Below, piece after piece: positions 17,913-41,147 of a stretch of 48,838 nucleotides of DNA; position 1 is the first letter of the stretch; each line of letters opens with the position of its first letter. Origin of the DNA: Planctomycetaceae bacterium (GTDB lineage Bacteria > Planctomycetota > Planctomycetia > Pirellulales > UBA1268). The DNA is taken from NCBI GenBank assembly GCA_011523305.1, contig WTHB01000151.1:1-48838 (forward strand), in the 5' to 3' direction. The notes beneath the pieces are model-generated. The model did not search any database and had not been told where the DNA came from. It worked only from the letters and a program-made list of their open reading frames with translations. The position numbers and the translations under genes are program-made.

Positions 17913-18623
17913 TCAGGCCGCTGCGAGGCTCAGGCGTTCGTCCATCCGCTCAACGTCATCGCAGCTGAGCGTATGGTCAGGATGGGTCACGGCAACCAAC
18001 AGCACCGACTCCACCAACCGCTGAACCATTCGGGGAATGCCCGCGGCGATTTCATGCACCGTGAGCGGCACCGCGGCAGCCCAGCCGCCGACGCCGGTGG
18101 TCGTCAGGCGATCACACACATAAGCCTCCGTCTCGGAAGGCGTCCACGGTGGCACAACCGCTCGCAGCAGCACCTGCTGTTGCAGATCCTGCTCGCGGGC
18201 TATCAGCGTCAGCAGGCGGCCTCGCCCCGCCAGAACAATGCCTCTCGCTTCAGATTCCGCCTGCAGACCCGCCACCAGATCTGCCAGTGCCGCCGCATCC
18301 ACCAGGTGGGCATCATCCAGCAGGAAAACTTGGTGCGCCGCTGGTCGTCCACCACGCACGAACGCAGGAGCCTGTGGCGTCAGATTATGTTTGAAGTCTC
18401 GGCACGAGAGCCGCACCACGCTCGAGCCAGCAGCTAGAAGATCCTCCGAAAGCTGTGTCAGGAGCGTCGTCACACCCGTCCCGCCGGGCCCGCACAGCAC
18501 GGCCATTCCGCCGGGCTGTCGCACCGCGTAGAGCAACCGCGCCAGCGCCGCCTGCTGCGGCTTGGTCAAGTCGACACCGACGGTGGGATCACCGCCACTA
18601 GCCAGTGCCCCCAACTGACTCAT
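17913..18623 (-). CDS. ExeA-like AAA ATPase with altered Walker A motif
   Basis: Product of 236 aa. Its ATG overlaps the stop of the upstream gene (ATGA), so translation is probably coupled. The layout is that of ExeA/AAA_22 ATPases associated with exopolysaccharide or secretion loci: P-loop region VLCGPGGTGVTTLL (residues 43-55), Walker B VFLLDDAHLVD (99-109), then a sensor-like GIVLAGRGRL. In the P-loop the invariant lysine before Thr is valine (Val51), encoded by GTG; a change from a Lys codon needs two substitutions. ATP hydrolysis may therefore be weak or absent. The C-terminal helices (IAAGIPRMVQRLVESVLLVA) match the winged/helical end of ExeA relatives. It is third in a three-gene operon. 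Confidence 0.75.
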   Translation of the reverse strand: MSQLGALASGGDPTVGVDLTKPQQAALARLLYAVRQPGGMAVLCGPGGTGVTTLLTQLSEDLLAAGSSVVRLSCRDFKHNLTPQAPAFVRGGRPAAHQVFLLDDAHLVDAAALADLVAGLQAESEARGIVLAGRGRLLTLIAREQDLQQQVLLRAVVPPWTPSETEAYVCDRLTTTGVGGWAAAVPLTVHEIAAGIPRMVQRLVESVLLVAVTHPDHTLSCDDVERMDERLSLAAA

Positions 18624-19306
18624 GCCGCCCTCGCGTGCGCAGCAGGGGCAAAACTGACTACCTCGCCAATCAACTGCACCCCGGTCGCAGCCAACGCCTG
18701 CTCAGACGCAGGGCAAGGGGGAGCATCATGATGCCGCACCATCAGCACCGCATCGAATCCAAAGGTGGCATTCCGGAGCTGGTGGATCCGCAGAGGCCCG
18801 GGCGGAAACCAGATACCCGCATCGACCAGCACGACATCACGGTCACCCTCAATCGCCTGCTGCCGCCACTGCCAGGTTGCCGCGTCGCCGATCAATTCCC
18901 GCCACCAGGCCGTGGCCGACTCAACCATCTTCACCTGCCAGTCGAGGTGCTCCAGCATGACCGCCACGCCACGCATGAGGGTGGTGCGTCCCTCACCCGA
19001 CTGATGGCCAGCGATCGCAATCACCCGGTGCCCCGCTTCGCGGGCCGCGCAGACTCGATCAGCCACCGTCCACCACTGTTCGGGATGGTCTTCCAGCAGC
19101 CGGGCCAGCACCGCATCAGCCGCCGAGAGCGCCACCGGTTCCTGCGCCCCGTCCGCAGCCGCCACCGCAGGCCTCGACGCCTGCACCGATGCGTGAACCG
19201 CAGCATCACCACGGGCATTCGCCACCCCGGCTGGTGCACCACTCACCTCACCTGGTCGGTCTGCGGCGTGCTGCACAAATGCCTGATCGAGTAGATCAAA
19301 GGTCAT
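18620..19306 (-). CDS. Tyrosine-autokinase-like (CpsD/Wzc-type) P-loop protein with Arg in Walker A
   Basis: Product of 228 aa. The ATG at 19306 follows GGGAGGAG and overlaps the stop of the preceding gene (ATGA). About 90 N-terminal residues are low-complexity and alanine-rich. Then comes VIAIAGHQSGEGRTTLMRGVAVML (95-118), which has the layout of the BY-kinase P-loop (usually S-x-x-P-G-E-G-K-S/T) but with Arg107 in place of the invariant lysine. DVVLVDAGIWFPPGPL (157-172) corresponds to Walker A-prime/B, and VLMVRHHD follows. No tyrosine-rich C-terminal tail is present. In characterised systems such proteins control polysaccharide chain length together with a membrane partner, which may be the gene upstream. 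Function here is inferred. Confidence 0.7.
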   Translation of the reverse strand: MTFDLLDQAFVQHAADRPGEVSGAPAGVANARGDAAVHASVQASRPAVAAADGAQEPVALSAADAVLARLLEDHPEQWWTVADRVCAAREAGHRVIAIAGHQSGEGRTTLMRGVAVMLEHLDWQVKMVESATAWWRELIGDAATWQWRQQAIEGDRDVVLVDAGIWFPPGPLRIHQLRNATFGFDAVLMVRHHDAPPCPASEQALAATGVQLIGEVVSFAPAAHARAA

Positions 19307-19857
19307 CGTACGCTCCTCCCGCCGGTGGATTCTGGCTCTGCGGCCAGCCGCACAACCGGCTCGCCCGTCTGCGGGGATGCTGGCCCGCGATATTCCACGG
19401 CGAGGACCGCCGCCCACACGAGTGCCGCCACGACCGCCAACACGGCGACGCCACCCCAGCGACCAGGCTGGGGCCGCTCACGTGACGGCTTGCGTGGGCC
19501 CACGGGTCGCGACCGGCGTCGTGGAGTAGCAGCCAACGGATGAGACGGCTCCGACCGAACTGCCGTCTTGCGGCCTTGTGCCTCCGGCCCCGACTTCAAG
19601 CATTCTGTCTTCAAGCATTCTGCGGCACCATCACAGCCAGCGTCTGCGACAACGGCGGTCGCGGACACTGTAGGCGACGCAACCTCGACCGCTGGCATCG
19701 CCAGTGGCTCTGGAGCCGGTTCCACGGCCGCAGGCAGAGGCGTTTCAGCCTGCTGCACCACCGGCGCCGGCAACGGCGGCACAAAATCCTCAAGCCGACC
19801 CCGCAGGTGCCGTTCCGATGGCGTCCCAACGGCTCGGAATGTCGCAATCGTCTCCAT
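19303..19857 (-). CDS. Single-pass membrane protein, first gene of the P-loop operon
   Basis: Product of 184 aa from the ATG at 19857, which follows a GGGGA site; the frame is open to 20055 but the extension looks non-coding. Residues 1-100 are Pro/Ala/Glu-rich and probably disordered. A basic stretch (PRRRSRPVGPRKPSRERPQP, 112-131) precedes one hydrophobic segment (WGGVAVLAVVAALVWAAVLA, 134-153), then about 30 residues. This predicts N-inside, C-outside topology. I recognise no domain. A 15-bp tandem repeat encodes ECLKT/ECLKS near residue 80. Its stop overlaps the start of the kinase-like gene, so it may be the membrane anchor or activator for the two P-loop proteins, as Wzz-like activators are for BY-kinases. 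That role is inferred. Confidence 0.65.
   Translation of the reverse strand: METIATFRAVGTPSERHLRGRLEDFVPPLPAPVVQQAETPLPAAVEPAPEPLAMPAVEVASPTVSATAVVADAGCDGAAECLKTECLKSGPEAQGRKTAVRSEPSHPLAATPRRRSRPVGPRKPSRERPQPGRWGGVAVLAVVAALVWAAVLAVEYRGPASPQTGEPVVRLAAEPESTGGRSVR
19594..19622. repeat. 15-bp tandem repeat inside the membrane-protein gene
   Basis: CTTCAAGCATTCTG occurs at 19594-19607 and again at 19609-19622, period 15. It is in frame and gives a five-residue duplication (ECLKT, ECLKS), in a region that looks disordered. Confidence 0.8.
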
Positions 19858-20177: not shown

Positions 20178-23100
20178 ATGCCCAGTTCTCAGCCCCCCCG
20201 CACGGAGACCCTCCTCAGCCTTCTTTCACAACGCATCGCCATTCTGGATGGCGCCATGGGAACGATGGTGCACGCCCTCGAATTGGATGAACAGGGCTTT
20301 CGGGGTAAGCCATTCCGGGACCATGCCCGCGACCTCAAGAACTGCATCGATGTCCTCACGCTGTCGCAGCCGGACGCGATTCGCACGATCCACACCTCGT
20401 TTCTCGAGGCTGGCGCCGACATCATCGAGACCAACACGTTTGGGGCAACGCCGGTTGCTCTGGCCGACTTTGGCCTGTCCGAACGCACCCGGGAACTCAA
20501 TCTGGCTGCTTGCCGGATCGCCCGCGAGGCGGCTGACGTCGTCACCGCCCAGAATCCCGACCGGCCCCGATTCGTCGCCGGCTCGATCGGCCCCACAAAC
20601 AAGCAGTTGTCGATTGCCGGCAACGTGGCCGACCCTGGCCACCGCGACGTCACCTTTGACGAAATGGTCGCCTGCTATCGAGAGCAGATCGAGGCCCTGC
20701 TTGAAGGGGGCGTCGACCTGCTCCTGGCCGAAACTGCCTTTGACACCCTGGTGCTCAAGGCAGCCCTCTTCGCCATCGAAGATGTCTTTCAGACGACCGG
20801 CATCCGCCTGCCGGTGATGGCCTCCTTCACCGTGTTCGAAGGGGGCCGCACCCTTTCGGCCCAGACTGTTGAGGCCTGCTGGCAAAGCGTCGCCCACGCC
20901 GACCTGCTCAGCATTGGTATCAACTGTGCCCTCGGCCCGGAAAAAATTCGCCCCTACCTGGCCGACCTTTCCCGCATCACCCCACGGCTGGTCAGTTGCT
21001 ACCCCAATGCCGGGCTCCCCAACGCCCTCGGTGGCTTCGACGAAACCCCTGAAATGATGGCCTCGGTCATCGGGGAGTTCGCCCGTGACGGGCTGCTCAA
21101 CATTGTGGGCGGCTGCTGCGGCACCACCCCCGACCATATCCGCGCGATCGCCGAGGCAGTCGCTCCCTATCCGCCGCGCCGGCCGGCGGAGCCTCCGCGA
21201 TTAAGCCGCTACTCCGGCCTCGAACTCCTTGAGGTTCGGCCTGAAAGTAGTTTCACCATCATTGGTGAACGAACCAACGTCACTGGCTCACGGGCCTTTG
21301 CCCGCCTCATCAAGGAAGAAAACTACGAGGCCGCCCTCAGCGTGGCCCGTCAGCAGGTCGAAAATGGCGCGAATCTCATCGACGTAAATGTCGATGAGGG
21401 CATGCTCGATGGCCCGGCCGTGATGACCAAATTCCTCACGCTCCTGTCGAGCGAGCCTGACGTTTCCCGGGTGCCCATCATGATTGACTCCTCCCGCTGG
21501 GAGGTACTTGAGGCTGGCCTGAAGTGCATCCAGGGCAAAGGGGTCGTCAATTCCATCAGCCTCAAGGAGGGCGAAGAAATCTTCCTCCGGCAGGCCCGGA
21601 CGATCCGACGCTACGGCGCGGCGGTGGTCGTGATGGCGTTCGATGAAGAGGGACAGGCGACTGACATCGAACAGCGTGTGGCCATCTGTGAGCGGGCCTA
21701 CACCCTACTCACCGAACAGGCCGGCTTCCCCCCGGAAGACATCATCTTTGATCCCAACATCCTCACCGTGGCAACCGGGATGGAGGAACACAACCGGTAC
21801 GCGATCAACTTCATTGAAGCCACCCGCGAAATCAAACAGCGAATGCCCTTGGCCAAGATTTCTGGCGGCGTCAGCAATATTTCGTTCTCGTTCCGGGGGA
21901 ACAATGTTGTTCGCGAGGCGATGCACGCCTCCTTCCTCTACCATGCGATCAAAGCCGGCCTCGACATGGGCATTGTCAATGCTGGCCAACTGGCGGTCTA
22001 TGAGGAGATCGAGCCCGACCTCCTCGAAAAAATTGAGGACGTCCTCTTTGACCGGCGGCCCGATGCTACCGACCGGCTGATCGACCATGCCGAGCAGGTC
22101 AAAGGGCAGGGGGGCAGCGCCGCCGCCAAGACTGACGCCTGGCGGAGCCTCGGTGTGGAAGACCGACTGGCCCACGCGCTGCTCAAGGGCATCACCGACC
22201 ATGTCGAGGAAGATGTCGAGGCCGCCCGGGGCGAGTACGACACCAGCCTGGAAATCATCGAAGGGCCGCTGATGCGGGGCATGCAGACCGTCGGCGACCT
22301 GTTCGGAGAGGGCAAGATGTTCCTGCCTCAGGTCGTCAAGAGCGCCCGAGTCATGAAAAAGGCGGTCGGCTACCTACTGCCCTACATGGAAGAGGAACGC
22401 AAAGCCCAGGGGAACGAGCAGACCAAACGCGGCAAGGTGCTGATGGCCACGGTCAAAGGTGACGTGCATGACATCGGGAAAAACATCGTGGGGGTCGTTC
22501 TCGGCTGCAATGGCTATGAGGTCGTTGACATCGGCGTGATGGTTCCCTGCGCGACGATCATCGACAAAGCGCGCGAAGAACAGGTCGATATCGTCGGGCT
22601 CTCCGGACTGATCACCCCAAGCCTCGACGAAATGGTCCAGGTCGCCAAAGAGTTTGAGCACGACAAGATTGGCGTTCCGCTGCTGATTGGCGGCGCAACC
22701 ACCTCTGCCCGGCACACGGCAGTAAAGATCGCGCCGGTCTATTCCGGAGACGTCGTTCATGTCACCGACGCGTCCCGGGCGGCAGGTGTCGTTGAAAAAC
22801 TGCTCAATCCAGCCTCACGAGACGAGTTCGTCGCCGCCAATCGTGCGGCCCAGGCCCGGGACGTGGAAAACTTTCAGAAGCGGCAGCAGGCGACCCTGGT
22901 GCCCTATGCCACAGCGGTCTCCAAACGCTGGACCACCGACTGGTCGGTGGCCGAAATTGCCACGCCGACCTTCCTGGGCGTGCGGCCACTCCCTACGGTG
23001 CCGCTGGCCGAACTGGTGCCGTTTATCGACTGGTCACCCTTCTTCATGGCCTGGGAACTGCGGGGCAAGTATCCAGCCATCTTCGATGATGCCACAGTCG

Positions 23101-23873
23101 GCACAGAGGCCCGCAAGCTCTTTGCCGATGCCCAACGGATGCTCGATGAGATCGTCGCCAACGACCTGCTTGAGGCTCGGGGCGTTTACGGATTCTTCGC
23201 AGCCAACAGCGACGGCGATGACATTGTGCTCTACAGCGACGATGAACGTACTGCCGAATTGGGCCGGGTCCACACGCTCCGACAACAGTGGGAACGCCGG
23301 GGCCAGGAGACCTTCCACGCGCTGGCTGACTTCATCGCTCCTGTCTCAAGCGGCCGAAAGGATTACCTCGGCGGCTTTGCCTGCACGGCCGGCCACGGCT
23401 GCAGTGAGATCGCGGCCCGCTACGACCGCGAGCACGACGACTACAACTCGATTATGGTCAAGGCTCTTGCTGACCGGCTTGCCGAGGCCTTTGCCGAATG
23501 GCTGCACAAGCGGGCCCGTGATGACTGGGGCTTTGGCTCCACAGAGGCGCTCGACAACAATGCTCTGATTGCCGAAGCCTACCGGGGTATTCGCCCGGCT
23601 CCCGGTTATCCGGCTTGTCCCGATCACACGGAAAAGCCCGGACTCTTCCGGTTGCTGGGGGCAGAAGAAGCCGCTGGCATGCAGCTGACGGAAAGTTTTG
23701 CTATGACGCCAGCCGCCAGCGTCTGTGGGCTCTACTTCGGTCATCCTGAAAGCCGATACTTCGCAGTGGACCGGATTACCCGTGACCAAGTTGAAGCCTA
23801 CGCCGCTCGCAAGGACATGCCGGTAGTCGACGTGGAGCGGTGGCTTGCCCCCAACCTCGGCTACGACCCGTAA
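20178..23873 (+). CDS. metH: Cobalamin-dependent methionine synthase
   Basis: Product of 1231 aa, nearly the length of E. coli MetH (1227). It transfers the methyl group of 5-methyltetrahydrofolate to homocysteine through methylcobalamin. The ATG at 20178 is preferred to an upstream in-frame TTG at 20130. All four modules are present: homocysteine domain with the zinc cysteines GGCCGTTP (Cys313, Cys314); pterin-binding domain starting near [20 protein letters not shown]; cobalamin domain with [22 protein letters not shown], where His764 is the cobalt ligand; and the SAM-binding reactivation domain containing [15 protein letters not shown] near the end. It stands alone, followed 55 bp later by the recombinase gene. 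Confidence 0.97.
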
Positions 23874-23928
23874 CCATCACGGGCGGAGATCCTTGTCCGC
23901 GTTGCCGGCAGCTTCTGAGGATCGTTTC

Positions 23929-24930
23929 ATGCCCCGCCGTCACCCCACTCCTGAGGCTGCCTCGCCAGCGACCGCCCCGCCACGGCGGTCACGGATTCGG
24001 CGGATCGCTTACGACGGCGGCCAAGTCAAGCCACTGGCACAGGTCCGCTTCGCCGAGCTCGCTGACAGGTTTCTGGCGTACGTCACGCACGAGCGGGGCC
24101 TGGCTGAGAACACCCAGGCCGCCTATCGACGAGACCTCGAAACCTTCGCCCGCTGGCTCGGCGGCCGGAACCCGCTGCGGGTGACGATTCAGGATCTCGG
24201 TGATCACCTCAGCGACCTGTCCCGCCAGGGTCACGCCCGGACCAGCATCGCCCGCCACGCGGCAACGCTGCGGAGTTTTCATGCCTTCCTCCAGTTGGAG
24301 GGCGTTCGGGCCGACAATCCGGCAGAGCAACTCGTCCTTGCCCGCCCGGACGACACCATCCCTGGCGTCCTCACACCTGCTCAAGTCGACCGCCTGCTTG
24401 GTAGCCCGTCGGCCTTCACCGCTGCCGGCAGTCGGGACCGGGCACTCCTCGAACTGCTCTACGCCACTGGCTGCCGGGCATCCGAAGTCTCTGCCCTCCG
24501 ACTGGACGACCTGCATCTGGACGAACAGTTCTGCACCTGCCAAGGGAAAGGCAACAAGGAGCGGGTCGTGCCACTGGGGGGACGGGCCTGCACTGCGATC
24601 TCGACATGGCTTGAGGACCATCGGTCAGATCTCGCCGATCGTGGCCGCGAGCCCGGCTGGGTCATCCTCTCAAGCCGGGGCAACCGCCTTTCGCGGATGC
24701 GAATCTGGGAGATTGTTCGCCACCATGCCTCCGCGGCAGGGCTTCCTCCGGACATCTCCCCGCACACGCTCCGGCACAGTTTTGCTACCCACCTCGTCGC
24801 TGGCGGCGTCGACCTGCGACATGTGCAAGAGATGCTCGGCCATGCCAGCATCGCGACGACCCAGCGGTACACCCATGTCGACTCAGGCCGACTCAAGAGC
24901 ATCCACGACCGGTACCACCCCCGGCGATAA
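23929..24930 (+). CDS. xerD: Tyrosine recombinase XerD-type
   Basis: Product of 333 aa. The ATG at 23929 follows TGAGG at good spacing. It catalyses site-specific recombination, for the Xer family resolution of chromosome dimers at dif. The N-terminal SAM-like core-binding domain (FLAYVTHERGLAENTQAAYRRDL) is followed by the catalytic domain with all expected residues: Arg in ATGCRASEVSALRL, Lys in GKGNKERVVPLGG, His-x-x-Arg in HTLRHSFATHL, His in MLGHASIATTQ, and the nucleophile Tyr in RYTHVDSGRLK. The first 45 residues are an Arg/Pro-rich extension beyond the usual roughly 300 aa. No integrase-associated genes or att-like repeats are nearby, so a housekeeping Xer role is more likely than a mobile element. 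Confidence 0.9.
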   Translation: MPRRHPTPEAASPATAPPRRSRIRRIAYDGGQVKPLAQVRFAELADRFLAYVTHERGLAENTQAAYRRDLETFARWLGGRNPLRVTIQDLGDHLSDLSRQGHARTSIARHAATLRSFHAFLQLEGVRADNPAEQLVLARPDDTIPGVLTPAQVDRLLGSPSAFTAAGSRDRALLELLYATGCRASEVSALRLDDLHLDEQFCTCQGKGNKERVVPLGGRACTAISTWLEDHRSDLADRGREPGWVILSSRGNRLSRMRIWEIVRHHASAAGLPPDISPHTLRHSFATHLVAGGVDLRHVQEMLGHASIATTQRYTHVDSGRLKSIHDRYHPRR

Positions 24931-24956
24931 GGCCAGCGGCCCACCGGTCGGCCGCA

Positions 24957-25430
24957 TCATTCAGCCGACGGTGGCGCAAAGGTGATCTTCTTGATCATCT
25001 CGATCAGCCGCCCATCATCAATTCGCCCCGACACCGCTGTAATCGCACTGATCACATTGGCGTAATCCAGGTCATAGTCGCAGTCGAGTTCCAGTTCGAG
25101 ATCGCCAGCCGATGCTCCCGCATCATCGACAAGTCCGGCCACCAGTTGCCGCAGTTCACTGAAACCTTCGACCGGCCTGCCATCCACTCTGATACTAGCC
25201 AAACTGCCGTCAGGCTGGGCATCCAGCCGCACTTTGATCGGCGGCACTTGCAGGTCTTCGGTCGGCTGCCCTGCCGACTTCCCCAGCGGCATCCGGACAT
25301 CAAAGTCGCCCTCGGGAGCGATGATGTTGAGCGTGAGCATGAAAAAGATCATCAACTGAAACACGACGTCGATCATCGGCGTCATGTTGATGGCGACTTT
25401 TTCGAGGCGGCGGCGGGGCAGGGCAGGCAT
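24957..25430 (-). CDS. ExbD/TolR-family protein (second copy)
   Basis: Product of 157 aa. I chose the ATG at 25430 because GGAG lies 7 nt upstream; an in-frame ATG at 25448 would overlap the preceding gene and has no such site. The single membrane helix carries the essential aspartate (INMTPMIDVVFQLMIFFMLTLNII). A short tail of two-strand, two-helix type ends in a periplasmic domain. ExbD proteins form the rotor core inside an ExbB pentamer and convert proton flow into mechanical work across the envelope. The gene begins 4 bp after the first exbD ends, so the two are translated together. Two different ExbD proteins beside one ExbB suggests a heterodimeric core. Confidence 0.9.
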   Translation of the reverse strand: MPALPRRRLEKVAINMTPMIDVVFQLMIFFMLTLNIIAPEGDFDVRMPLGKSAGQPTEDLQVPPIKVRLDAQPDGSLASIRVDGRPVEGFSELRQLVAGLVDDAGASAGDLELELDCDYDLDYANVISAITAVSGRIDDGRLIEMIKKITFAPPSAE

Positions 25431-25434
25431 GAGA

Positions 25435-25911
25435 TCACTCCGGCTCATAGTGGGCACGGAGGGCAAATCGCTCAAAGCCCTCTTCCTGACAGGCACGAAT
25501 CACCCGCTGGACATCACCCGTGCTGGCCCGGCCATCAGCTCGGACGATCACGGTGGCCTGCTTGGGGTCTTTGCCTGCGGCAACGATGATTTCCCGCTCC
25601 CGCCGGAGGGGCGTGGTGATCTGATCGACCGGCACAATCTCACCGGCGTAGAGCACGCCACCCGTCGCGGTCAACTGCATCGTGATCGGTGTCTCAAGCA
25701 CGCCTTCGGCAGGCTTCGCCAACTGACTGGCCGGCAGCTGAATCCGCTCATCCTGCTCCGCTTCACTGAAGTTTAGCACGAACATGAAGAACGTAATCAG
25801 CTGAAACGTGACGTCGATCATCGGCGTCATGTCATTCTCAACGGTCGACGGGCCGGTGGTTTTTCGTGTCACGGTTGCGTCATCCTCATCTCTGCCAGCA
25901 GGCACGCCCAC
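25435..25911 (-). CDS. ExbD/TolR-family protein (first copy)
   Basis: Product of 158 aa if started at the GTG at 25911. A GTG at 25872, with GAGG upstream and a product of the more usual N-terminal length, is an equally possible start. The transmembrane segment with catalytic aspartate reads VENDMTPMIDVTFQLITFFMFVLNF. The periplasmic part (ATVIVRADGRASTGDVQRVIRACQEEGFERFALRA) matches the ExbD/TolR fold well. It is located 13 bp after the ExbB-like gene and 4 bp before the second exbD. The two ExbD proteins share the membrane motif but differ in the periplasmic part, so they are not recent duplicates. Confidence 0.9.
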   Translation of the reverse strand: MGVPAGRDEDDATVTRKTTGPSTVENDMTPMIDVTFQLITFFMFVLNFSEAEQDERIQLPASQLAKPAEGVLETPITMQLTATGGVLYAGEIVPVDQITTPLRREREIIVAAGKDPKQATVIVRADGRASTGDVQRVIRACQEEGFERFALRAHYEPE

Positions 25912-25924
25912 CAGCGAACGGGCA

Positions 25925-26749
25925 TCACTTCTTCACCACAGGCACCTTTGCAATCAGCCGCACTCCTTCTGCCTCAATATCACTGGTAAATCGCTCCAAC
26001 CAGTTGCGAAACAGACTGAAGCAGGCCACCGCCGGAATCGCCAGCCAGAGCCCAATCAGCGTGGTGACGAGCGCCTGTGAAATGCCTGTCGCCAGTTCCG
26101 CCGGCTTTGGCTGGGTGGCCGACTGGGCAATCACCGTGAAGGCACTCACCATGCCGCTGACGGTGCCGAGCAGGCCAAACATCGGCGCAAGCGCCCCGAC
26201 CAACGAGACATAACTGATTTTGTGCTCCAGCCGCATCGTTTCCTCGCCCTGGGCCTCCCGCATGGCTTCGAGCGATTGCTGGTAGCCGACCTGAAGCTTC
26301 ACCAGTCCCGCAGCCAGCACCCGGCCAAGCGGGGAATCGTCTGCTTTGGCAAGTTCGTAGGCCTGCTGAAACTCTTTCCTGCCCAGATGCGACTCAAACC
26401 CCTCGATCAGATCTGGGGGCATCAGCACAGCCCGTCGCAGCTGCAGGAAACACATCACCAGCAGGGCCACCAACGCAAACGACAGCCCCAGAAAGACCAT
26501 CACGAACGTGGGGCCGAGCGCCCTGACGTAGTAGACCAGCAAGTTCGGCGGTGCTGCCGGGGTCGCGTCGATCACCGGGGCGGGGTCTGCCATCCGACCG
26601 GCCGGCGGTGCCACCTCACCGACGGCTCTTCCTACTGCGGCATCTCCGGGCGCCGCCGATTCCTGGCCACGCCCCTGGGTTGCCCAGAGGGTGCTACTCA
26701 AGCCAACTACCAGGACACCTACCCACAGCCGGGCGCTGCTTGTTTGCAT
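25925..26749 (-). CDS. MotA/TolQ/ExbB proton-channel protein
   Basis: Product of 274 aa from the ATG at 26749, with GGAG upstream. A signal-like N-terminus (LWVGVLVVGLSSTLWATQG) and a Pro/Ala-rich linker precede the ExbB core. Three membrane helices follow: VYYVRALGPTFVMVFLGLSFALVALL; the family signature region YVSLVGALAPMFGLLGTVSGMVSAF; and ISQALVTTLIGLWLAIPAVACFSLF. The N-terminal signal-peptide form is common in planctomycete and Bacteroidetes relatives. It would form the pentameric stator around the two ExbD proteins encoded next. With the TPR genes upstream it may make an envelope machine that does not use TonB; no tonB, tolA, tolB or pal is present here. Confidence 0.9.
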   Translation of the reverse strand: MQTSSARLWVGVLVVGLSSTLWATQGRGQESAAPGDAAVGRAVGEVAPPAGRMADPAPVIDATPAAPPNLLVYYVRALGPTFVMVFLGLSFALVALLVMCFLQLRRAVLMPPDLIEGFESHLGRKEFQQAYELAKADDSPLGRVLAAGLVKLQVGYQQSLEAMREAQGEETMRLEHKISYVSLVGALAPMFGLLGTVSGMVSAFTVIAQSATQPKPAELATGISQALVTTLIGLWLAIPAVACFSLFRNWLERFTSDIEAEGVRLIAKVPVVKK

Positions 26750-26795
26750 CGCTGCTCCATCCCTGACGTCTTCCGGTCTGCCGCCGACACGCATC

Positions 26796-35559: not shown

Positions 35560-36225
35560 TCAGCGATTCCCGAAGTATTTCCGCAACGCGTCCGCAGCCG
35601 CATCACGGCTCGTCCCACCCAGCTTGGCATCCTTGGGCAACTGGCCCGGTTTCGAACGGGATTTCAAGATTTCCTCGACAGCCCGTCCGTGAGCAGAGAT
35701 GTCTGAGTCATCTTCAGCCTTCGTTCCATCCCCTCCCTTGGCCTTTTCAAGCGACTCGGACGAGATCGCCGTGGTGGCCGCTGCATCCTTGTCCTGTAAT
35801 TCGGCTGTTCCGTGCACAATCGCCGAGTCGTCCGCCGCCTGCAGCGACCGAGTGGTGTCGTGCATCCCCGCTGGCTGATCACCCCCGAGGAGCAGGCGGG
35901 AGATGTCTTCCTCCGTCTCCAGCGGAGGCTCGACCGCCACCGACACCTTCAGTTCGAGCGAGCCAACCCGCACCAGATCACCATCGGCAAGCTGCTGCGG
36001 TTCACTGATCTTGAGCCCATTCACGAACGTCCCATTGCGACTGCGGAGATCTTCCGCCCACAAGGCATCGTCTCGCTTCGTGATCGCACAGTGCCGGCGA
36101 CTGACCTCTTCACTGAGTGGCCGCAGGTCACACTCTTCGGCGCGACCGATCAGCAGTTTGTCCCGTTTCATCGAAATCGCCCGTCCGGCGCGTTTGCCGG
36201 AGGCGATGATTAGTTTGGCGTTCAT
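35560..36225 (-). CDS. FHA-domain protein
   Basis: Product of 221 aa using the ATG at 36225; an ATG three codons upstream at 36234 is also possible. The forkhead-associated domain occupies about residues 1-95 and binds phosphothreonine peptides. Its conserved positions are present: [25 protein letters not shown] (Gly-Arg, and Ser-Arg-Arg-His) and [16 protein letters not shown] (Asn-Gly). The rest is an acidic, Ser/Thr-rich linker and a C-terminal helix ([14 protein letters not shown]), which resembles the tail of many planctomycete FHA proteins. No Ser/Thr kinase is encoded in the window, so its partner is elsewhere. Confidence 0.88.
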
Positions 36226-36426
36226 ACACCCCATCTCGAACCATACTGTTCACCTGAACTCCCCCTGGTCGCCACTGATGAACCGGGACAAAAAAAGAAG
36301 AACCCAGCATCGACCAGTAGACGAACGCTAGCACGATCACCGTCGCGAGTCCAGCCGGAACACGACCACTCCCTTAGGTGAGGGGTGACGCCGACCTGTT
36401 GTTCTGCCGCGGTACAACCGGAGGTT

Positions 36427-37215
36427 TTACCGGCGATTGAGCCATGCACTGCTGGCATAGCGGGCGGCTCGCGGGGCCAGGTCGACGGCATGCGATTTCC
36501 ATGAAGACCCGGCATTCTCAACCAGCCCGCCGCCGAGTCGGTCCGCAAGTCGCTCCAGCCACTGATCGATAACAGCCGCTGTGCCGACGTCTCGATCACC
36601 AGCCAGATCCTCAATGCCCGGATGGCTCCCCGCGCCCGTCATCTCGGGATGCCGCCGGAGCAAAAGGCTACCGTGCTGCAACACGACACCCGCCAGCCGT
36701 CGCTGAGCACTGCCGAGCACCTTGTCGTCACCGGCAGCATCACTCGCACGTTCAATCACCACATCGCCAAACGACCGGCGATTGAAGCAGAAGAATTCCT
36801 CTGCGGCCTGCGTCGACACCGGGGTCGCGAGGCGGGCGGCAAGCCCTCGCTCCCTCAGGACCTCGACCAGGGCCGAATGAACCGCCGCATAAAGATCTTC
36901 CGCCCGGCGACCCCAGGGATGGCCCGTTGGCACAGCGAGTCCATACGTGAGGTCCGTCCCATGCACCAGCGTGCCGCCCCCACTCGATCGCCGCACCACC
37001 GGCCAACCAGCCACCTGCGGGACATCACCAAGGGTGGCGGCCTGCTGGAAACTACCGAGTGAAAGCGTTGCCGGCTGCCAGCCATACAGCCGCATCAGCA
37101 CCCGCCCCGTCTGCTCCGCAAACTGAGCCAACCCCTCATCAGCAGCCATATTCCAACTGCCTTCCCCCGGCGGATCACGCCAGAGCGTCAGGCCACAGGC
37201 ACCGCCCCCGGTCAA
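36427..37215 (-). CDS. Lipoyl/octanoyl transferase (LipM/LplA family)
   Basis: Product of 262 aa from a TTG at 37215 that overlaps the gcvH stop, implying coupling. It belongs to the biotin/lipoate ligase fold: WNMAADEGLAQF, VVRRSSGGGTLVHGTDLTYGLAV and KVLGSAQRRLAGVVLQHGSLLL, with Lys165 as the conserved lysine. A cysteine at position 143 in FFCFNRRSFGDVVI aligns with my recollection of the acyl-carrying cysteine of LipM-type octanoyltransferases, which favours acyl transfer from ACP over ATP-dependent ligation. Position directly behind gcvH suggests the H protein is the acceptor. The family is strong; the exact reaction is inferred. Confidence 0.82.
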   Translation of the reverse strand: MTGGGACGLTLWRDPPGEGSWNMAADEGLAQFAEQTGRVLMRLYGWQPATLSLGSFQQAATLGDVPQVAGWPVVRRSSGGGTLVHGTDLTYGLAVPTGHPWGRRAEDLYAAVHSALVEVLRERGLAARLATPVSTQAAEEFFCFNRRSFGDVVIERASDAAGDDKVLGSAQRRLAGVVLQHGSLLLRRHPEMTGAGSHPGIEDLAGDRDVGTAAVIDQWLERLADRLGGGLVENAGSSWKSHAVDLAPRAARYASSAWLNRR

Positions 37216-37598
37216 TGCGACCCACTCCCCGTGAGGGCGTCGTAGGCAGCCTGATCGAGTAATGACTCAAGCTGGGCTGGATCATCTGGACGGATCCGAA
37301 TCACCCAGCCGGCACCGTACGGATCACTCCCGAGGGTTTCGAGGTTTCCGGGAAGATCGGCATTGGCGGCGACCACCTCGCCAGAGAGTGGCGCGTAGAG
37401 ATCACTGACCGCCTTCACACTTTCGATTTCACCGAACGATTCCCCAGCCGTCACCGTCGCGCCCACCTCGGGCAGCTGCATGAAGACGAGGTCCGTGAGG
37501 GCTTCCACTGCATAGGCAGAAATACCGATGGTGACCGTGCCGTCGTCTTCAAGACGGGCCCACTCATGTGACTTGGCATAGCGACGCGGGTGATCCAT
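37212..37598 (-). CDS. gcvH: Glycine cleavage system H protein
   Basis: Product of 128 aa, normal for the family. The ATG at 37598 follows GGAG; an earlier in-frame start is less well placed. The H protein carries the lipoyl arm that shuttles the aminomethyl group between P, T and L proteins. RYAKSHEWARLEDDGTVTIGIS opens the barrel, and the lipoylated lysine is Lys62 in GEIESVKAVSDLYAPLSGEVV. NADLPGNLETLGSDPYGAGW is also typical. It lies 44 bp after gcvT and overlaps the start of the lipoyl/octanoyl transferase gene, forming a gcvT-gcvH-transferase operon. Confidence 0.97.
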   Translation of the reverse strand: MDHPRRYAKSHEWARLEDDGTVTIGISAYAVEALTDLVFMQLPEVGATVTAGESFGEIESVKAVSDLYAPLSGEVVAANADLPGNLETLGSDPYGAGWVIRIRPDDPAQLESLLDQAAYDALTGSGSH

Positions 37599-37642
37599 CA
37601 GGGTTTTCTCCAGAGTGCACAACAGGGATAAGGCTCTTCGCC

Positions 37643-38842
37643 TTAGTCGGCTCCACGCGACCGACGATAAAACGGAAGGGGTACCACCCGGACAGGCAGC
37701 GGTGTGTTTCGGACGACCACCTCAAGCTGCGTTCCCGGAACGGCAACAGCGGCATCGACAAACGCAAGCGCCACGCCGCACCCTATGGTGGGTGCAAAAC
37801 TGCCGCTGGTCACCATGCCGCAGGCCGCACCGGCTGGCACGTTCACCTGATCGCCCTGACGGGCCGCTCGCCGGGACTCAAACTGCAGCCCAACCCGCTG
37901 CTGGGACAAGGCATCACGCTCCGCAGCAAATGCAGCAGCGCCGGGGAAGCTTCGACCATCAAGATTGACTGCCAGTCCGAGGCCGATGGCAAATGGATTG
38001 GAGGTTTCCACCAGTTCATGTCCGTAGAGCGGCATGCCAGCTTCAAGCCGCAGGGTATCGCGACTGCCGAGCCCACAGGCCCGCACGCCTGCCGCCGCAC
38101 CAGCATCAAGGAGTTGTTCCCACACGGTCGTCGCCACGCTGGCTTCAACCACGAGTTCAACACCATCCTCACCGGTATAGCCGGTCCGACTGACGGTGGC
38201 TGGTGCTCCAGCAATCGTGGTCTCCAGACCAGCATAGACAGGAAGCGATGCCACCGCCGCAAGCACCTCAGCCGGCAGGATCGCCGCCAGTGGCCCACTT
38301 GCTACCGCCTCTGCCGTAGTGCCGAACACCACCGGCCCCTGCACCGCAATCATCGCTGTTGCACTGGAGCAATCGGTGAGCGTCACACCTGTCTCGGGCA
38401 ATCTGTGCTCCAACCACCGCAGCACCCGCGATCGATTGCTGGCGTTGACCACCAGCAGGTAGCGGGGCGTGGCATCTTTGGCATCTGCCAGCCGCGTGAT
38501 CAGGGCATCGTCGAGAATGACAGGATCAGACGACGCTACCTCTCCTTCTGCTGCCTCCAGATCGATACCCGCCACCAGCGTATAACGGGCCCGCCCGACT
38601 GGCAGGTTGTCGACCCGCCTCGTGAGCAGGCCCTCGAGCCAGGCGGTTGAGTCCGGCCCTGCAATCATCAGTCGCCCCATGTGCGAAACATCAAACAGCC
38701 CGGCCGCCTGCCGGGTGGCCACATGCTCACTGACAATCGACTCGTACTGCACCGGCATCGACCAGCCGGCAAAATCGACCATGCGGCCGCCGTGTGCCTG
38801 ATGCCAGTCGAACAGGGGCGTTTGCAGGAGTGTGTTGTTCAT
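37643..38842 (-). CDS. gcvT: Aminomethyltransferase (glycine cleavage T protein)
   Basis: Product of 399 aa. The ATG at 38842 has GGAG upstream; the frame runs open much farther, to 39409, but that part is antisense to rnr. It transfers the methylene group from the H protein to tetrahydrofolate and releases ammonia. TPLFDWHQAHGGRMVDFAGWSMPVQY is the classical N-terminus, followed by GLFDVSHMGRLMIAGPDS, RTGYTGEDGVELVVEA and GLGSRDTLRLEAGMPLYGHEL. The product is about 30 residues longer than typical. gcvP and the lipoamide dehydrogenase are not in the window. Confidence 0.97.
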   Translation of the reverse strand: MNNTLLQTPLFDWHQAHGGRMVDFAGWSMPVQYESIVSEHVATRQAAGLFDVSHMGRLMIAGPDSTAWLEGLLTRRVDNLPVGRARYTLVAGIDLEAAEGEVASSDPVILDDALITRLADAKDATPRYLLVVNASNRSRVLRWLEHRLPETGVTLTDCSSATAMIAVQGPVVFGTTAEAVASGPLAAILPAEVLAAVASLPVYAGLETTIAGAPATVSRTGYTGEDGVELVVEASVATTVWEQLLDAGAAAGVRACGLGSRDTLRLEAGMPLYGHELVETSNPFAIGLGLAVNLDGRSFPGAAAFAAERDALSQQRVGLQFESRRAARQGDQVNVPAGAACGMVTSGSFAPTIGCGVALAFVDAAVAVPGTQLEVVVRNTPLPVRVVPLPFYRRSRGAD

Positions 38843-38913
38843 TGGGCTCCATCCCAGACCGATGGCGTCAGCCTCCCTCAAGGGACTTCGCCGGGTGATC
38901 GCGTGCATCCCGC

Positions 38914-38949
38914 CAGGCAATCGTGCCTGCGACCCCACTCGACGGGTCG
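38914..38949 (-). ncRNA. Two abutting hairpins in the gcvT leader
   Basis: Read on the minus strand, CGACCC/GGGTCG (6-bp stem, 8-nt loop) is followed without a gap by CAGGCA/TGCCTG (6-bp stem, 4-nt loop). The pair lies 72-107 nt before the gcvT start. It does not match the glycine riboswitch consensus I know. It could be a structured leader or chance pairing in GC-rich DNA. Confidence 0.35.
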
Positions 38950-38969
38950 TGATCCAATCAACGCTTGCG

Positions 38970-38975
38970 ATTGTA
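38970..38975 (-). promoter_or_regulatory. Possible -10 element for gcvT
   Basis: On the minus strand TACAAT lies about 20 nt upstream of the twin hairpins, so transcription from it would include both. No convincing -35 is seen at 17 nt, so support is weak. Confidence 0.25.
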
Positions 38976-39029
38976 CGGGTTTCGCAAAATGCGACCACCC
39001 TGTCGCCGGCAGTGGCAGAGGCCCGATGG

Positions 39030-41147
39030 TCACCGCCGCTTCCGGCGTTTTGATCGGGGGGGTGCGGGCGGGCCACTGGCCGCGTTTCGGCGTTCGCTTC
39101 GCCGACGGCCACGAGGTTCGCGGGGCTGCGATCGGCCCGCCCCGGCCCGCTGCCCGCCGCCAGCCCGACGACTCTTCCAGCTCCGTCGTTGGACAACAGC
39201 CAACTCCAACAGTCGCTGCTCCAGATCAACCGCTGCGACCCGGACCCGCACCCGGTCGCCGAGCCGATAGGCATTGCCTGGCCGGTGCCCACTGAGCGTG
39301 TGAGCCGCTCGATCGTAGCGATACCGATCATCCGGGAGATCGGCAACCGCCACCAGCCCCTCGGCGGGCAGTTCAATGCCCTGCACAAACAGCCCAAAGC
39401 GTTCCACACCGGTCACAACGCCGTTGAGTTCCATACCGATTCGGCTGCTGAGAAAGTGCAGCAACTTGAGTTTGACCAGTTCCCGCTCCGCCGCCTCCGC
39501 CCGGCGTTCCAACTCGGAACACTGTTCCCCCAACTGGTTCAGCCCATCACGGGGTGGCCGCCGGCCAGCAGCCAACAGATCGAGTGCCCGATGGACCGTC
39601 AGATCGGGATACCGCCGGATCGGGGAGGTGAAATGACAGTAGCAGTCACTGGCCAAGGCATAGTGGCCGTCTTCCTGGGGGCCATAGACCGCGCGGGAGA
39701 GGCTCCGCAGCACCGCATAGTGAACCGCATGTTCTTCCGGGCAGTGCCGCACCCGGGCCAGCAACCGCTGGAGTTCAAACCGGCTTTCAAGCGAGTCCAC
39801 CTCGAACCCGAGTTCCGTAACAAACTCAGTCAACTGCCTCAGTTTGCGGAGATCAGGGGCCGGGTGGATCCGCCGGAGGAAGCCGGCCTCTCCCTCCGCG
39901 AGCGCACGGGCGACCGCCTCATTGGCTGCCAGCATAAACTCCTCGATGATCTGGTGGCTCTCGGTGTACTCAACAACGTGCGCCCCGCTGACCCGCCCCG
40001 CCGCATCAAGATCAATTTTGACCTCGCGCATGTTCAATTCGAGTGCACCCCGGTCGATCCTTCGCTGGCGGAGGAGCCGGGCCAGATCCCGCATCCGTCC
40101 CAGCAGTCCCCGCACGGCCCCGGTCATCTGCACCACGGTGGTACGGGGATCGGCCAAGAACTGATCGACTTCTTCATAGCTGAACCGGCGTCGGCTTTTG
40201 ATGGCCGTCCGTTCAATCGTGGTGGCGATCGGCACACCCTCGGCCGAAAACTCAATCCAGCAGGTCCGGGCCAGTCGGACATGACCGGGCTGCAGGCTGG
40301 CGAGATTGTTCGAGACAATCTCTGGCAGCATCGGAATGACACGATCCGGCAGATAGACGCTGGTGCCCCGAGCCAGCGCTTCCTGATCGAGGGGCGAGCC
40401 CTCCCGCACGAAATGCGCGACGTCGGCAATGTGCACCCCGAGCAGCCAGTGGTCACGCTCAATCCGCTTCAGTGAAATCGCGTCATCGAAGTCCCGGGCA
40501 TCGACCGGATCGATCGTCACCACGACCTCGCCGGTCAGATCGCGTCGGTCACTGGGCACCTCATCACCAAAGGCCGCCGCCTGCCGCCGGGCATCCTCCA
40601 GCACCACGTCGGGAAAGTCTCCCGGCAGGCCGAATTCAGCAATCACCACGCGGGTGTCGACTCCGGCCTCTCCGGCCGCCCCCAGTACTTCGACAATCAC
40701 GCCTTCGCCGTCTCGCACCAGACTGGGGAAGCGGATCAGTTCGACCACCACCTTGTTGCCGGCATGCGCCGACTTGGCCCCCGGATCACCCACCCAGACC
40801 GCCCGTGGAAACTGAGTGCCATCGACCTGCACCCAACACTGGCCGGCTGACTCAAACGCCGTGCCGACAAACCGGGTAGTCTGCCGCTGGAGCACCTCGA
40901 TCACCTCACCCGCCAGCCCCGGACGACCGATATTGCGGCTCTTGCTCAGCCGCACGCGGACCGTGTCGCCATTGGCGGCATCGAGCGATGCTGCGGCTGG
41001 TACCCGAATATCTGCCGCGCGGTCCCCGGGAGGGGTGTCAAGAGGATGAACAAACCCATATCCCTGCCGACTCCGTCGAAAGCGGCCGACCACCACTGAG
41101 GCCGACCCGGACGGACGGGGCGGAGAAGAGGAGCGATGTCGATTCAT
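39030..41147 (-). CDS. rnr: Ribonuclease R (RNase II family 3'-5' exoribonuclease)
   Basis: Product of 705 aa. Its ATG overlaps the stop of the yhaM-like gene (ATGA). It degrades RNA processively, including structured RNA. The RNB catalytic region is clear: VVTIDPVDARDFDDAISLKRIE supplies the metal-binding aspartates. GVHIADVAHFVREGSPLDQEALARGTSVYLPDRVIPMLP and FMLAANEAVARAL follow, then CHFTSPIRRYPDLTVHRAL. N-terminal cold-shock-like domains precede it. An S1 domain (MELNGVVTGVERFGLFVQGI) and a basic tail ending KRRKRR complete it. The N-terminal helix-turn-helix of E. coli RNase R is missing, which explains the shorter length. Confidence 0.95.
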   Translation of the reverse strand: MNRHRSSSPPRPSGSASVVVGRFRRSRQGYGFVHPLDTPPGDRAADIRVPAAASLDAANGDTVRVRLSKSRNIGRPGLAGEVIEVLQRQTTRFVGTAFESAGQCWVQVDGTQFPRAVWVGDPGAKSAHAGNKVVVELIRFPSLVRDGEGVIVEVLGAAGEAGVDTRVVIAEFGLPGDFPDVVLEDARRQAAAFGDEVPSDRRDLTGEVVVTIDPVDARDFDDAISLKRIERDHWLLGVHIADVAHFVREGSPLDQEALARGTSVYLPDRVIPMLPEIVSNNLASLQPGHVRLARTCWIEFSAEGVPIATTIERTAIKSRRRFSYEEVDQFLADPRTTVVQMTGAVRGLLGRMRDLARLLRQRRIDRGALELNMREVKIDLDAAGRVSGAHVVEYTESHQIIEEFMLAANEAVARALAEGEAGFLRRIHPAPDLRKLRQLTEFVTELGFEVDSLESRFELQRLLARVRHCPEEHAVHYAVLRSLSRAVYGPQEDGHYALASDCYCHFTSPIRRYPDLTVHRALDLLAAGRRPPRDGLNQLGEQCSELERRAEAAERELVKLKLLHFLSSRIGMELNGVVTGVERFGLFVQGIELPAEGLVAVADLPDDRYRYDRAAHTLSGHRPGNAYRLGDRVRVRVAAVDLEQRLLELAVVQRRSWKSRRAGGGQRAGAGRSQPREPRGRRRSERRNAASGPPAPPRSKRRKRR

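Follow-up and report, generated by a model that had tools for sequence, protein, structure and literature searches.

Two adjacent P-loop proteins that both lack the Walker A lysine are encoded by a single planctomycete operon, and the two losses have different histories. In B, a relative of the BY-kinases, absence of the lysine predates the split between the order of this organism and a further family of the same class (f21). In A, a protein of the AAA+ fold, loss of the lysine is recent, recurrent and confined to one family. Pseudo-enzymes are usually found singly. Here, one conserved operon would combine a pseudokinase distributed throughout the order and beyond with an AAA+ partner that is found at every stage of losing catalysis.

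Architecture of the operon

The window, that is the whole stretch of 48,838 nucleotides analyzed, is a contig from the 3.5-Mb metagenome assembly of a planctomycete (G000). Gene C (19303–19857), gene B (18620–19306) and gene A (17913–18623) lie on the reverse strand and are joined by ATGA junctions at 19303–19306 (B/C) and 18620–18623 (A/B). The first-pass annotation proved accurate with respect to coordinates, strand, junctions and both degenerate Walker A motifs, which are GEGRTT in B (18980–18997, reverse strand; Arg107 at the lysine position) and GTGVTT in A (18465–18482, reverse strand; Val51 at the lysine position). Chance and sequencing or assembly error were rejected as causes because the same state is present in independent genomes.

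Gene C encodes 184 residues, comprising a conserved N-terminal peptide, a disordered Pro/Ala-rich part, one transmembrane helix and a 28-residue tail. The helix (approximately residues 136–154; 19396–19452, reverse strand) has a hydropathy of 2.74 over 19 residues, in agreement with the earlier description of C as a single-pass membrane protein, and a basic stretch ahead of it suggests an N-in topology. The N-terminal motif, METIATFRAV (19828–19857, reverse strand), corresponds to VIARFPRL, VLLRVPDC and VLIRLPDL in relatives, and conservation of this hydrophobic-R-hydrophobic-P motif supports the assigned start of C. No match to C was obtained in Pfam or NCBIfam, and no co-polymerase domain was found with Pfam. 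A sub-threshold match to the Rfam NiCo family within C was taken as chance; at the gathering threshold, Rfam gave no match in the window or in the C-metH intergenic region.

Gene B encodes 228 residues that form an N-terminal helix, a linker and a BY-kinase-fold domain. Its start is supported by conservation of M-x(1–4)-LDQAF across the order, where the helix motif (MTFDLLDQAFV in the window; 19274–19306, reverse strand) has the consensus MSxLDQAFIKAY. Outside the window, only some gene starts were fixed. The conserved N-terminal motifs of B and C may serve as interaction peptides, but their partner might be encoded outside the operon, which would count against the complex of the three proteins proposed below. 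Gene A encodes 236 residues and is a shortened XrtA-ATPase/ExeA-like AAA+ protein. The divergent metH gene (B12-dependent methionine synthase; 20178–23873, forward strand) is a conserved neighbor for which no claim of membership in the system is made. The gene order metH, tyrosine recombinase (XerC-like), ExbD, ExbD and ExbB-like (20178–26794) is kept next to the operon in many of the family genomes. Assignment to a defense system was rejected, PADLOC having given weak P-loop matches only.

Distribution and gene neighborhood

The distribution of the operon was assessed in 72 genomes of the window's family, including that of the window, and in 147 genomes searched for the order, many of the sampled genomes being incomplete metagenome assemblies. 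Orthologues of B within the operon were present in the window's genome and in 64 of its 71 family relatives, and six of the seven misses were in genomes that were at most 82% complete. Across the order, almost every family yielded B orthologues, which were separate from the Wzc-type kinases of 750–850 residues; the genera g40, g36 and g54 of the order are without the operon. Within the same class B orthologues were also present in f21 and in three genomes of family f24, and in a sample of genomes from elsewhere in the phylum no B match passed an E value of 1e-19.

The first-pass description of the three genes as an operon was upheld. At all 148 loci where both genes were identified, B and A lay on one strand and in this order. 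The B-A ATGA overlap was present at 33 of 65 family loci, and the C-B overlap at 46 of 65 family loci and 20 of 96 of all other loci; gene C was followed only where this latter overlap occurred. The operon adjoined metH at 58 of 65 family loci, the remaining seven having no upstream sequence. In the other families of the order, 12 loci extended far enough upstream to judge, and metH was the neighbor at 10 of them. No polysaccharide genes were found adjoining the operon, whether Wzz, glycosyltransferase or exosortase. The earlier remark that glycosyltransferases are absent was supported; where sequence suffices, most loci sit beside metH instead. In f24, the B orthologues (L199, L200 and L201) occur without A and away from metH, one of them near argininosuccinate synthase, which suggests that B may work without A. 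Elsewhere in the window's genome (G000, contig C54, approximately 35760–39932), an ExeA-like protein (590-residue frame) and a MinD/BY-like P-loop protein (282-residue frame) are encoded approximately 3 kb apart.

B is a BY-kinase relative that lacks the Walker A lysine

Homologues of B from outside the family scored best against the BY-kinase families TIGR01007 (7e-25) and TIGR03018 (XrtA-associated tyrosine autokinase). The best PDB matches of the B profile include CapB, BceF, Etk, VpsO and Wzc. The predicted fold of window B matched the CapAB chimera and Wzc kinase domains, with moderate support (TM 0.4–0.46; mean pLDDT 72). Together with the matches described below for A, these profile and fold results agree with the initial view that a BY-kinase relative stands beside an ExeA/XrtA-ATPase relative.

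The Walker A lysine was missing in 160 of 161 B orthologues; as a control, 15 of 17 Wzc-type BY-kinases from the sampled genomes retained it. The position was occupied in the window's family by Arg (47), Cys (10) and others, and in other families of the order by Arg (30), Cys (23), Ala (10), Val (5), Thr (4), Gly (2), Ser (1) and Lys (1). It was Arg in all 17 f21 proteins and Ala or Ser in f24. The Gly preceding this position was retained in 159 of 161 proteins and the Walker B Asp in 157 of 161; in group g11 the remainder of the P-loop has also gone. Some P-loop proteins with Arg at the lysine position can still bind nucleotide. Transfer of the lysine to another residue of B was considered and rejected, since no general K/R column was apparent beyond the P-loop Arg and scattered positions. 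The single lysine-bearing B (GTGKTT; L169 1459–2253, genome G125) is a genuine orthologue beside metH, with no A found alongside, and was counted as the exception; its lysine may be a reversion tied to loss of A.

The Walker A' motif (DxDxxxP) was absent from B in 65 of 65 loci of the window's family, and in its strict form was present in 43 of 76 proteins from other families of the order and in 17 of 17 from f21. Within the window's family, B has gained a strong signature, VDAGxWFPPGP, which in the window opens with the Walker B-like segment VVLVDAG (Asp162; 18815–18835, reverse strand). There is no C-terminal Tyr cluster in window B and no Tyr in its C-terminal part. Window B thus shares fold and sequence relationship with active BY-kinases and has none of their Walker A lysine, Walker A' motif or Tyr cluster. 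In combining such a fold with degenerate catalytic motifs and the lack of a Tyr tail, it resembles BY pseudokinases of the EcpK/HfsB type. B was assigned as a putative BY pseudokinase, the prefix reflecting its motifs.

A has lost catalytic residues within one family

Outside the window's family, homologues of A are full ExeA-like proteins with the motifs MYxxYW...PF and GxxGxGKT/S, and they matched TIGR03015 (XrtA/PEP-CTERM ATPase) with E values of up to 1e-51. Window A scored 47 bits against this profile and full-length homologues 116–176 bits, all below the curated cut-off of 324.5. A has the AAA+ fold, and its structural matches were AAA+ proteins. Matches of A and B to nSTAND_NTPase5 were under the cut-off, and this assignment was discarded.

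The Walker A lysine was present in all 83 A homologues outside the window's family (67 of 67 from other families of the order and 16 of 16 from f21) and in 37 of 65 inside it, where the only substitutes were Val (14) and Thr (14). When mapped on a tree of A and B from which the lysine columns had been left out, this distribution needed at least six changes. The Walker B catalytic Glu was present in 61 of 66 proteins from other families of the order, 11 of 16 from f21 and 2 of 65 from the window's family; corresponding values for the sensor-2 Arg were 64 of 65, 16 of 16 and 6 of 64. Given that loss of the Glu is family-wide and loss of the lysine is scattered, the Glu was probably lost before the lysine. 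In window A, Val51 and the Asp104 that replaces the catalytic Glu in the Walker B motif LLDDAH (18306–18323, reverse strand) depart from the intact motifs that most homologues outside the family possess. The sensor-2 Arg, Arg198 (18030–18032, reverse strand), is missing in most of the family and retained in window A. A retains the Walker B Asp and the Thr/Ser that follows the lysine position.

Simple pairwise estimates of dN/dS over profile-matched codons were 0.09–0.40 for pairs of lysine-less A and 0.20–0.46 for pairs of lysine-bearing A. Values in this range (0.09–0.46) indicate that the genes are maintained under purifying selection. Local decay, with lysine at both positions in close orthologues, was not seen; the degenerate state is conserved, and each of the eight orthologous loci obtained for the genus, that of the window among them, combines Arg107-type B with Val51-type A, the lysine position being Arg in the former and Val in the latter. 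Beyond the genus this conservation extends to B, in so far as it lacks lysine almost throughout, but not to A. The suggestion that both lysines were lost together as a shared adaptation was not supported, the loss in B being the older. The pseudo-ATPase reading is strengthened by the losses, across the family, of the Glu and sensor-2 Arg from A and of Walker A' from B. Elsewhere in the order, A is full-length and motif-complete. As B is already lysine-less there, the ancestor probably possessed one pseudo-enzyme and one probable ATPase.

A membrane-anchored complex as the proposed explanation

The explanation we favor, with confidence a little better than even, is that C, B and A form a membrane-anchored complex in which C is the anchor, B a pseudokinase scaffold and A a component held by B and disabled in the window's family. 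Here, the single-pass protein C would fix B at the membrane, and B would link C to A without tyrosine phosphorylation. Over most of the order, where its catalytic motifs are all present, A would probably drive remodeling at the expense of ATP. In the window's family A would have been disabled stepwise: it was shortened and, in most members, deprived of the Glu and sensor-2 Arg, and then lost the lysine on at least six occasions. The module of the window organism is predicted to act by assembly, perhaps with sensing of nucleotide or phosphate, without normal ATP hydrolysis. Conservation, motif losses, fold assignment and purifying selection were read from the sequences themselves; interaction of the three proteins, the scaffold role and the membrane topology are what we infer.

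EcpK and HfsB have been described as BY pseudokinases and proposed to be scaffolds (PMC12004946), and this precedent implies that a BY-kinase fold can scaffold without catalysis. The likeliest origin of the module is a regulator of an exopolysaccharide co-polymerase, namely the pair of BY-kinase and XrtA-ATPase. It is also conceivable, if rather doubtful, that a two-ATPase module was turned stepwise into a non-hydrolyzing assembly, with the lysine-less scaffold arising first, repeated convergent loss of lysine, Glu and sensor 2 following, and an Arg moved to sensor 1 compensating in part of the cases. If true, such a conversion would supply a natural series of steps leading from an ATPase to a protein with a structural or nucleotide-sensing role. 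The matched natural variants make it possible to ask what a P-loop protein does once ATP hydrolysis stops, in a module that appears to be kept under selection while its ATP chemistry is dismantled. The range of BY pseudokinases, whose recent description concerned exopolysaccharide systems, would also be extended to a widespread planctomycete operon without adjoining polysaccharide genes.

Sensor 1 of AAA+ proteins sits by the γ-phosphate, and so Arg134 of A, at the sensor-1 position (18222–18224, reverse strand), might stand in for the missing lysine. On this hypothesis A would still hydrolyze ATP slowly or bind it tightly, and B would bind nucleotide via Arg107. Sensor-1 Arg was present in 20 of 28 lysine-less and 1 of 37 lysine-bearing A proteins of the window's family. 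Three separate gains are seen, all of them within clades that lost the lysine. In one case, an early branch of group g7 (L091) has the Arg with the lysine still present, so that the gain visibly precedes the loss. Retention in A of the Walker B Asp and of the Thr/Ser after the lysine position and the invariant Arg of f21 B point the same way. However, the sensor-1 column was picked after a scan of all columns, and with a rough chance of 0.03 for three gains on lysine-less branches before that selection and no power in the independent-pairs test, the covariation is suggestive, not significant. The remaining lysine-loss lineages have Gln, His or Glu at this position, and the catalytic Glu of A is also missing, such that replacement of the lysine by a relocated cation is judged unlikely.

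If the module were losing function in the window's family, with constraint relaxed and the genes turning into pseudogenes, this would account for the shortening of A and B there, the loss of several motifs and the eroded P-loop of g11 B. This slow decay is nevertheless very improbable in view of dN/dS values that are alike for lysine-less and lysine-bearing A, reading frames that are nearly all open, an operon whose few absences fall mostly in incomplete genomes, and a lysine replaced by Val or Thr only amid retained P-loop residues. B could also act in trans on the polysaccharide co-polymerase of the genome, as EcpK would, with C and A as localization partners. Descent of B and A from an exopolysaccharide-associated pair favors such a role, as does the joint action of EcpK and HfsB with a co-polymerase (PMC12004946). 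The sole Wzz-type co-polymerase found in the genome is, however, fused to its own lysine-bearing kinase with an intact motif; the known client of a BY pseudokinase is therefore missing, and a straightforward role like that of EcpK is not evident. The operon lies, moreover, beside metH. We give action in trans little weight, and favor the complex of C, B and A.

Comparison with known systems

No literature on planctomycete BY-kinase/ExeA loci, and no earlier description of the operon, was found. EcpK of Myxococcus xanthus and HfsB of Caulobacter crescentus resemble B in being stand-alone BY-kinase folds with catalytic motifs lost and a proposed scaffold function without Tyr phosphorylation (PMC12004946). 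EcpK has no Walker motif at all, whereas B retains its other P-loop residues together with the Walker B Asp and, unlike EcpK, has its own N-terminal helix motif. In exopolysaccharide loci the partner of EcpK is a co-polymerase; the partners of B, beside metH, are a single-pass anchor devoid of a Wzz domain and an AAA+ protein. A kinase-less co-polymerase, the partner expected for the EcpK/HfsB type, was not found, C having no Pfam match and the only Wzz found in the genome being kinase-fused.

The XrtA/PEP-CTERM pair, TIGR03018 and TIGR03015, consists of the same two kinds of protein as B-A, and these were the best-scoring families (with TIGR01007 for B), although the scores of B and A homologues were under the curated cut-offs. 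The operon departs from this pair in the missing lysine of B and in the degraded lysine, Glu and sensor 2 of A in the window's family. In the ExeAB complex of type II secretion, ExeA/GspA is an AAA+ ATPase that works with a single-pass, Pro-rich membrane partner. A is of the same broad AAA+ kind and has a partner of similar form. By contrast with ExeAB, neither a transmembrane nor a peptidoglycan-binding part is predicted for A, no GspB domain is recognized in C, and a BY-kinase-like protein is added. B homologues also gave a weak match to NF047398 (KGGVGR-motif variant AAA ATPase), a P-loop family of the ParA/MinD-like kind that is named for an Arg in place of the Lys; this match was under the cut-off and concerns a different subfamily, the best B matches being BY-kinases.

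Among the full-length Wzc-type BY-kinases, L212 (G041) and L207 (G026) lack the Walker A lysine (EGRTT and EGTTT, respectively) and have an intact Walker A'. In f23, a further family of the class, short BY-kinase-like proteins of 319–326 residues (L221 and L222) have DAGTTT or QAGTTT P-loops.
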